The position numbers were made by a program, and so were the translations under genes. A stretch of 64,000 nt of DNA, from NCBI GenBank assembly GCA_964019415.1, contig OZ025877.1, positions 6,862,141 through 6,926,140 of the forward strand, written 5' to 3'. Every line of letters starts with the position of its first letter. Position 1 is the stretch's first letter. Source of the stretch: Ianthella basta. Taxonomy: Eukaryota; Porifera; Demospongiae; Verongiida; Ianthellidae. The notes under the pieces are model-generated. The model was not told the origin of the DNA and made no database searches. It was given only the letters and a program-made list of their open reading frames with translations. This document shows, in pieces, positions 35,217-38,200 of this stretch.

Positions 35217-38200
35217 ATGGAGGTTCCTGGACCAGCGAGGTCGCGGTGGTCTCTCTGGAGCGACGAATCGATAGAGTTCGTTCGCAAACCGCGAGAATAC
35301 CTACGCTCTAGAGTGGAGATGTACGGCCACACGTTCTCGGGGAGGATTGTGAACAGACCGGTCGTGTTCTTGACCAGCAACAAGGGTGTTGAAGAACTGC
35401 TGAACGGTAAGCCAAAGACTGTGTAGATCTGTACGTACGTAGCTATAGACCTAGCACAAGAAGTCTCGATCTCCCTCTCTCTGAGAGCATCTATGCTGAG
35501 AGGAATGGGACGTCCGTGTGTGCGTTGTTTTAGCCCAGTTTAATCTCTCAAGCCTGCACCTCCACACTTCACATAACTGGTACACACTGTGTGACTGTGT
35601 CTACTTTTGAATGTTTGAATATGTTGTCATACGTACGTTTTCTGTGCAGATGAAGTGAAGAGCTTCACCTCAGGCTACAAGGAGTACTTTTATGAACTCT
35701 TTGATGCCAGTCTTCCTTTTCTGGAAGGTTTGTACTGCTGCACTCACCCAATGTGCACTGTGACTCCAGTACACTCCATAGTGCATTCACCGTGACCTGT
35801 ACTTTGTATGAAGGTTATACACCATAGATCAGCCACGTACCAGTAGGTCATTGGTGCCTTGGTACAAATGTTTGTGAGTGTTCTGCTTTGCCTAATTGTC
35901 TCGCTTTGCTTCATCACTGGATTGAGGAGTGTGAGGTGGTGTGGACCTTGCACACTGGGTGGTGAACTAAGTATAACTGTATAAGATGGGCTCGCAAAAA
36001 GTGTCATTGTTGTGTAGGCTGTGTATATGATATACGTCAGTGTCACAGGCTTGGGTTTAGAGCCAACAACAGAGTCCCCTGTACTTCAATAATGTGCTGT
36101 TCTGTTGGTGAGAGGGTAGGTGCTAATACAGAAAAGCTACTTGAATGAACTATGGCTTGTTTCTGATGTGTATTGTGTCTACTCAGTCCATCATAGTGAT
36201 GTGCCCATTCCTTGTGCCCTTACTGTATGTCTAGATGGGTCGTGGGAAGGTGTGCGTGCAGCAATGTCAACTGCATTCCATCAGGAGAGAGGAGCAGAGT
36301 ACTGCCGGCAAAGCAGGAGGTGAGGACTGTCACTGTTTTTGTCACTGTATTGTAAATGTCACTTGCATCGTCATTGTCATTGTTACTGACACTTTTCCAT
36401 GTCTCATTCACTCTCTCTCTCTGTCGCTATTACTGTCACTGTCATCGTCACTCACTGCTGTCGCAATCACCTCCATCACTCCACTGTATGCCATTCACTG
36501 ACAGACAGAGTCAGTGATATCAGGATTGGTCCATGTTTGTCACTCTTTCCTTGTTCATGGTGTACTGCAACAATATGTGCTAGCATCTTCAAAGCACTCA
36601 AGAGAACACCACTTTGATTGCCTGTGTATGGTCCACTGTACACCCTGACCAACCCCCTTTCTGAATACCCACTGCAGTTGAAAGGGTTGGGTTGTATTGT
36701 CATGTCCTATTAAGATATGGGCAGTCACAAGGTTGTAATGGCGAACAATGGGTGCTATTCACTAGTACGTAACTCACTTAAGTTAGTGCTACGTATTTAC
36801 TTGCTTCTCCTTTGACTGTGTGTGTGCCTCATGTACACACCTTACCTTCAATGGCGCTGTATGGTGTGTGTTCTTTCTTGCTTTGTGTAGCTTGATAAGA
36901 AAGTTTTATTCAGAACTTGACATAAGGTACATATTCATAGTCACATGATCGTCATATGTCTTGGTCACATGACAGTCACATGATTTGGTCACATGACAAG
37001 CACATGATTAACGCAGTACAGTACATACATTATACTCATGCAGTCTGTGGTCATAACTGCCCCTCCTTACCTACACAGCAAACCAGTGGTTGTGTATGAG
37101 GTGTTTAAACGCCTGGCAACCAAACTATCAGTGTTCCTCTTTCTGGGCATCCAGCTGGACGATCCTTTATTTGAGGAGGTGTCACAACTCATGACAACAC
37201 ACTGGAGAGGTGGGTAGAGGTGGGAGATTGTGTTAGTGAATGTTCTGCGGACTGGCTGTATCTATGGCAAAGTATCAAATTCAGTTCTCAAGACGAGGGG
37301 AAGCAAATGCTCGTTGCCACAATCAATAGCTCAGTGACTGAAATTCTGTGATAGACCTCATGAAGGTCCCGGGTTTGAACCTTGGTTGTGGCCTATGTTT
37401 TTTCTCTCACCACATCCTTTCGAGCTGTGAACATTGTCTTTTATAATGGGAAGTTGTTTGACGCAGTTGGGAGTGAGATTGGAGGGGATGAAGTAGTGTA
37501 TATGTTATGCGCAAACCTCTAACCTGCGCAAAGCTGCAATCCGCGTGCATGTTACCGGGGTAGTACATTACATGGGGTTCATATGCCATACTTACAGTAT
37601 AAAGTGGCACACATGCATGCTTTTCACTCTTAAAGTGAACGCTAAGACAATATCTTCAGAATGACACTTAGATGCACACAGTAGAGCCCTTTACTATGCT
37701 GAGTACTCGCTCTCTCCTCAGGGTGTATTTCTATTCCCGTCAACGTTCGCATACCTCTGGTATCCTTTCAGTCAGGATATGCCAAAGCATTGAAGGCCAA
37801 AGAACGCCTTCTTACTATCATTAAAGAAAGAGTGGACGCTTCGCTGTGAGTGTTATAGTGTTGTGTGTGAATGGGATGAATAATGTGGTAGAGGCTCATG
37901 CTACGTTGTCTAGCAGGTTTTATGAGGCGTTGATGAGCATTCACGTAGCTAAAAAGGAAAGTTCGAGTAAAACGTTTCGACCACGAGGGTCTTCATCAGT
38001 TACAAAAAACTGTTTTTTGTAACTGATGAAGACCCTCGTGGTCGAAACGTTTTACTCGAACTTTCCTTTTTAGCTACGTGAATGCTCATCAACGCCTCAT
38101 AAAATGGGATGAATATTGGCTGATTTTGAATATATTACTGTAGTGGTAGCATTCAAGCTGAGTCTCGTGTATATGAAGTAGAAGAGGCCAAATTCCTCCA

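Follow-up and report, generated by a model that had tools for sequence, protein, structure and literature searches.

What kind of event places two hammerhead-ribozyme-like motifs in inverted arms, with a tail on one side only and a target duplication at the ends, and do the two motifs act as a pair? The window analyzed here, a stretch of 64,000 nt of Ianthella basta DNA, raises this question at 37870..38115, where the initial annotation had described a foldback insertion. We interpret the foldback most readily as a dead-end copy of a Penelope-like element (PLE) that arose incidentally during PLE integration. We consider it probable that both 3′ ends of a staggered break primed PLE reverse transcription and that the two cDNAs were joined head to head. 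The arguments for this reading come from the anatomy of the window copy, from its relatives elsewhere in the genome and from the junctions of dozens of similar insertions.

The foldback and its Penelope-like relatives

The 13-bp duplication, the 35-nt one-sided tail and the inverted arms were all re-measured and stand as first described, save that each arm, given as about 92 bp, is 93 nt long (Table 1). The left and right arms are 100% complementary over these 93 nt around a 1-nt spacer, and the final two bases of the right arm overlap the target duplication (38103-38104). The initial annotation was right in recognizing a target duplication and, in the arms, inverted pseudo-LTRs (pLTRs) of Penelope type with an extension on one side.

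Table 1. Features of the 64,000-nt window (., no strand)
Feature	Position	Strand	Basis
Foldback, family 1: target duplication, left copy, 13 bp, AATGGGATGAATA	37870..37882	.	sequence read and measured
Tail, one side only, 35 nt, antisense	37883..37917	-	sequence read; BLAST of loci
Left arm, 93 nt, antisense cDNA copy of PLE leader	37918..38010	-	
Left-arm hammerhead-like motif, stem I to stem I	37967..38003	-	mirrors right arm
Head-to-head joint of the two putative cDNAs, at the presumed RNA 5′ end	38011	.	clustering of ends
Right arm, 93 nt, sense PLE leader copy, without tail	38012..38104	+	
Right-arm hammerhead-like motif, stem I to stem I	38019..38055	+	
Right-arm stem I	38019-38022 / 38052-38055	+	
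Right-arm CTGATGA	38023-38029	+	
Right-arm extra A	38030	+	
Right-arm stem II	38031-38034 / 38040-38043	+	
Right-arm GAA	38044-38046	+	
Right-arm ACGT	38047-38050	+	
Right-arm predicted cut	after 38051	+	motif comparison
Target duplication, right copy, AATGGGATGAATA	38103..38115	.	sequence read and measured
Second, independent foldback, another PLE family	7884..8133	.	core pattern and measurement
Second foldback, duplication, 12 bp, CACTCCTCATGC	7884-7895 and 8122-8133		
Second foldback, arms	7896-7991 and 7993-8089		
Second foldback, tail, 32 nt	8090-8121		
tRNA gene	27480-27551	+	Rfam
snoU13	52923-53037	-	Rfam
Host-gene region	2855-6759	-	
Host-gene region	8149-9087	-	
Host-gene region	21073-21939	+	
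Host-gene region	43983-47589	-	

The genome (209 Mb in 96 contigs) holds the border between tail and arm at 135 places, 100 of them listed, and a control gave 0. Some loci have a long body between two arms that face outward. At one of these, L040, the sequence flanked by arms and tail is an RT/GIY-YIG-like ORF, a stop-to-stop frame of 653 codons, in which Pfam calls a reverse transcriptase domain (RVT_1, E 9.3e-11) and which matches the homologue P0009 at 53% over 419 residues. Pfam does not call GIY-YIG in the L040 frame itself; it does so in P0009, and the C-terminus of the L040 frame matches that region at 48% over 174 residues. At another locus, L039, two RT-type bodies stand head to head. 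Judged from these flanking bodies, arm and tail are the 3′ end of a Penelope-like unit, so the family assignment made at the outset holds: it had been staked on the arm or tail adjoining a Penelope-type reverse transcriptase elsewhere in the genome, and both adjoin a PLE RT/endonuclease ORF. RT adjacency, a C-terminal GIY-YIG (via P0009) and a tailed pLTR with a short duplication place the element among endonuclease-bearing PLEs. A genome search for more of the 5′ region of the ORF with the L074 pattern returned one place and no complete 5′ region; in the fetched loci the arms are inverted and outward-facing only, and no full unit with a 5′ region was found among them. No solved structure matches the PLE ORF.

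A hammerhead-like motif in each arm

Both arms carry, in the order originally given, GTAA / CTGATGA / A / GACC-CTCGT-GGTC / GAAACGT / T / TTAC. A 28-nt core pattern (at most 3 mismatches) matches the window four times, against a mean of 0.00 in 100 shuffles, and a looser core pattern matches 140 genome places, 100 of them listed, against 0 for its reversed control. The extra A between CTGATGA and stem II, said to be shared by other copies, is indeed common to 42/42 distinct variants collected, a count biased in that the regular expression permitted just A or G there and most loci were fetched by AAG patterns.

Over all 42 variants, in which related copies enter as separate rows, the stems pair in 90.5% of cells (shuffled mean 78.0; 0/500 as high), and pairing falls to 11.3-49.4% when the partner is slid out of register. 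(An earlier count on 17 of the 42, picked by hand with several broken-stem-I variants omitted, gave 93.4% paired.) Two-sided changes are seen at 4/4 pairs of stem I and 2/4 of stem II; the variants were fetched with patterns that fixed parts of stem II, and stem I is therefore the cleaner evidence of covariation. Two weaker measures gave 6 pairs changed on both sides (11/500 shuffles as high) and 12 further pair types (68/500 as high). With the core in both arms and stem I covarying across the 42 variants, the description of the modules as hammerhead-like was right. The conserved core order, the presence of stems I and II and compensatory stem changes, especially in stem I across families, are those of a minimal type I hammerhead. 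Minimal, stem-III-less type I hammerheads are described from the terminal repeats of PLEs in the accessible text of PMC6155905 and PMC7761336, and the sponge motif resembles them in core order, in having stems I and II and no stem III, and in its position in a PLE terminal repeat; it departs from them in the extra A. Outside PLEs, a viroid hammerhead is also known to have one nucleotide more in its core.

The covariance-model check that had been proposed came out negative: none of the Rfam hammerhead families scored at E 10 or better in one arm, or at E 5 or better in 14 loci from related families, and a scan of 37800-38200 returned no hammerhead, mostly microRNA-hairpin look-alikes under gathering scores, such matches as a perfect hairpin would give. 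A hammerhead that lacks stem III may be invisible to the Rfam hammerhead models. Folding energy fails to separate the 49-nt leader (z 0.47) or the 93-nt arm (z -0.18) from shuffles.

Arms, tails and 5′ ends across the family

To this family, family 1, belong 88 distinct tail-anchored insertions that could be oriented (from L001-L008 and L047-L136, with one locus, L093/L125, counted twice). The window copy stands outside the 88, an extra T breaking its 43-mer anchor, and so do eight tail places at the end of the 100 listed, together with 35 that were not listed. Positions are numbered from +1, the A of TTCAGTTTT, directly before the hammerhead. BLAST finds a second arm in 70 of the 88; among the other 18, the first arm runs to the end of the fetched stretch in 7, L050 represents part of the long copy L040, and a short second arm is visible by eye in at least 4 (L068, L083, L108, L117). 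The second arm has its outer end at +88 to +103 in 56/70 and at +20 to +64 in 10/70, the remaining 4 being cut off. In 60/70 two-armed insertions neither arm goes beyond the leader and there is no body between them, and arm lengths run from tens of bases to about 1.9 kb in one continuum with RT-bearing copies.

Each insertion has one tail at most. The second arm carries a tail in 0/70 (66 readable, 4 cut off), and no second tail lies within 8 kb of any of the 100 listed tail places. Thirty loci fetched by core rather than tail (L009-L038), merged by eye to 24 insertions, comprise 19 with one tail, 5 with none and 0 with two; if tails were acquired on the two sides independently at this frequency, roughly one tailed insertion in four would be expected to have two. 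The tails of L014 and L016 in this set were found by BLAST and missed by an ungapped count; L012, L014 and L015 are similar and could be duplicates of one another; and L010 and L031, among the five tailless insertions, are less than 80% alike. Two loci depart from the common plan: at L025/L134 (C2:5623515) the first 41 nt of the leader are repeated head to tail at least seven times, about 36 nt apart, in the space separating the arms, as though through repeated template switching by the enzyme, and L069/L045 (C7:2190874) has three arms, not two.

The 5′ ends of the arms cluster sharply. Among 138 usable ends (range -130 to +88; the L050 end, an artefact of an inserted stretch, is left out), 85 lie between -3 and +3, where an even spread would place 3.8; the end falls at this common point in 39/88 tailed arms and in 46/70 untailed arms, and for both arms in 26/70. 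Family-1 copies that extend further 5′ have TATAAA with its first T at -31, followed by TTCA(+1)GTTTT, and related elements at two loci carry TATATAAA at -29 (L151) and TATATATT at -31 (L031), so that a TATA box stands about 30 nt upstream of +1 in most copies reaching that far. The clustering of ends and these motifs suggest that +1 is probably the RNA start and that the short arms are run-off copies of a hammerhead leader, from starts in the 5′ pLTR. The family-1 GGTCG at +28 to +32 is downstream-promoter-like and fits a consensus for such elements; it was set aside as a downstream promoter element, being also a strand of hammerhead stem II and not kept in family 2.

Nothing in these ends clearly indicates prior cleavage of the template by the ribozyme. 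There is no clear cleavage peak, with 0 of the usable family-1 cDNA ends at +37 to +41. Three of the 88 tailed arms end at +42 (L091, L111, L131), and in the tailless insertion L029 the outer (RT-start) end of one arm lies at +39, the predicted hammerhead cut; these four are too few for a cleavage signature. Frangieh et al. (PMC11167929, in the portion available) likewise report no reads at the cut site.

Probable two-sided priming and its rivals

We posit that the foldback is a non-coding insertion of an endonuclease-carrying PLE. Both target strands would be cut with a stagger of about 12 nt; one 3′ end would prime at an outer start site, about +124, leaving the tail, and the other at an inner site, about +94. 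Both cDNAs would run 5′-ward through the hammerhead leader, halt at the RNA 5′ end and be joined head to head, and filling of the overhangs would yield the target duplication. The tail of the window copy would then represent the RNA between the inner and outer RT start sites, and the opposite orientation of the two hammerhead modules would follow from how the copy was inserted. The meaning of the tail is taken from PMC11167929, whose accessible text deals with PAc, a Poseidon-type PLE of Anolis carolinensis with a hammerhead at the pLTR-ORF border: in vitro, both target strands are cut and extended by the PAc protein, which begins synthesis at two sites delimiting the tail. The sponge element would share with PAc the hammerhead at this border, two internal RT starts bounding the tail, the cutting and extension of both target strands and the lack of an insertion signature of ribozyme cleavage. 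It differs in that each start site is used at most once per two-armed insertion and in that the reading frame after the ATG of CTGATGAAG is, by eye, short.

The junctions bear directly on how the two arms came together. Among the 70 two-armed insertions, 61 distinct junction types occur, some arms being joined directly, others through overlaps that reach 19 nt, through filler or through leader patches in either orientation; one 6-nt overlap was used by seven joins, and no single inherited junction common to these copies was found. A duplication of at least 8 bp of its own flanks 53 of 66 tested insertions (most often 12 bp; 13/66 fall below 8), against a mean of 1.03 and a largest value of 4 for re-paired flanks, and most of the foldbacks therefore formed where they now lie. 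The hairpin could itself be the mobile unit, as in a self-propagating foldback or a miniature inverted-repeat element. This would explain the inverted arms, the target duplication and the 40 or more similar copies that were scored, yet it is very improbable given the variety of junctions, the continuous range of arm lengths that takes in RT-bearing copies, and a tail that breaks the symmetry of the ends. Self-priming, in which one cDNA, or an antisense-RNA copy, folds back and is copied into a hairpin, deserves more weight and is still improbable. It was argued in PMC3846280 (2013), in the part available to us, from junction palindromes at the inverted Penelope pLTRs of Adineta vaga, and it suits both the 39/70 insertions whose arm ends lie within 9 nt of each other and the variants that the arms of one insertion share (31, against a re-paired mean of 6.6 and a largest value of 23, in 35 insertions that include the window copy and exclude long-body copies), a sharing expected if both arms came from one RNA or one source and confounded by copy age. 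A copy, however, cannot exceed its template: arm stop points lie at least 10 nt apart in 31/70 (end points being uncertain by a few nt through microhomology and BLAST), with the untailed arm reaching at least 10 nt further 5′ in 24/70 and the tailed arm in 7/70. Snap-back of a tailed arm should also copy the tail, which the second arm consistently lacks. Hairpin self-priming does not readily explain such unequal reach, which agrees with priming from the two 3′ ends of a staggered cut.

Two further alternatives concern the hammerhead. Two-sided priming could be right and the stop at +1 nonetheless reflect a processing site or an enzyme block 5′ of hammerhead stem I; the site does lie directly 5′ of stem I in the families compared, and the RNA start is read here from the genome alone. 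We find this unlikely, as the stop comes once the enzyme has copied through the entire hammerhead and the site has a TATA box at about -30 and an initiator-like TTCAGT. The view advanced in the initial annotation, of a functional module in which two inverted hammerheads act as a pair, draws on a core kept in both arms and a stem I that covaries across families. It is hardly tenable: a transcript of the whole foldback is computed to fold as one long hairpin of -172.4 kcal/mol, which would bury both modules, so that the ribozyme of the window copy is unlikely to work; there is a single sense copy of the ribozyme per strand; and junctions and arm lengths differ from copy to copy.

Two-sided priming also sets these insertions beside other inverted products of retrotransposition. 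In L1 twin priming, two primings on one insertion lead to an inversion, the two cDNAs coming from different stretches of the RNA; here, in contrast, both cDNAs begin near the same RNA end. A closer likeness is Pen2a_Av of A. vaga (PMC3846280, as far as its text is available), which has inverted pLTRs with head-to-head as the commonest inverted arrangement, an optional 31-bp tail on one inverted pLTR, target duplications of 9-10 bp, and initiator-like and TATA-like sequences in the pLTR. All of these have counterparts here; unlike Pen2a_Av, 60/70 two-armed insertions consist of leader only, and the range of junctions speaks against self-priming as put forward in that paper. Minimal hammerheads, inverted pLTRs, tails, short duplications and TATA/initiator-like pLTR sequences are thus already known. 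Apparently new are the body-free foldback as main product, junctions that point to two-sided priming, the one-tail rule and 5′ ends that would mark the start site; an argument for two-sided priming and one tail from genomic junctions was not found in a literature search that missed key PLE papers (2014, 2017, 2021).

The family provides dozens of independent, short, readable insertion events that bear on the mechanism of PLE integration, for which antisense self-priming was proposed in 2013 (PMC3846280) and for which the 2024 biochemistry, in the available text of PMC11167929, leaves the steps beyond first-strand synthesis unvalidated. The census argues for priming at both break ends and for a start-site rule that leaves one tail per insertion; it further suggests that PLE transcription starts could be mapped without recourse to transcripts and offers a reason for the position of the hammerhead. 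A bolder reading, toward which we remain tentative and slightly on the skeptical side, is that PLE integration is obligately two-sided: a paired enzyme would use each of the two RT start sites once, one site at either end of a staggered break, perhaps with both primings on a single RNA, and the hammerhead would sit at the transcript's extreme 5′ end because the core promoter stops immediately upstream of it. If this is true, every two-armed insertion should have one tail, inverted pLTRs would be the normal product of integration and not an oddity, and the center of a short foldback would mark the element's transcription start. Counting against two-sided priming as we posit it, the available text of PMC11167929 reports no difference in start site between the top and bottom strands for PAc in vitro, whereas the genomic insertions show one tail each.

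The second foldback of the window, built on the same plan (Table 1), belongs to a second PLE family, represented by 41 copies (40 fetched loci and the window copy). CTTCA(+1)GTTT is present in 7/7 extended copies checked, the same string having been used to find copies, and TATA is present in five of these (first T at -30 or -28) and absent in L178 and L188. The tailed arm stops at +1 to +4 in 13/41, extends further in 5/41 and stops inside the leader in 23/41; BLAST finds a second arm in 22/41, ending at 92 to 106 in 18. A duplication of at least 8 bp occurs in just 8/22 two-armed copies (shuffled mean 0.5, largest 4), and these weak duplications slightly lower our confidence in two-sided priming. 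Among 100 listed of 119 tail places, two pairs lie within 8 kb; both are in the same orientation and are thus not two tails of one insertion.

The host-gene regions of the window contain two BTB-type frames (BTB/BACK in the one tested), a TCERG1-like WW-domain protein and mitofilin, as well as three frames that resemble one another, the one tested being AGTRAP-like.
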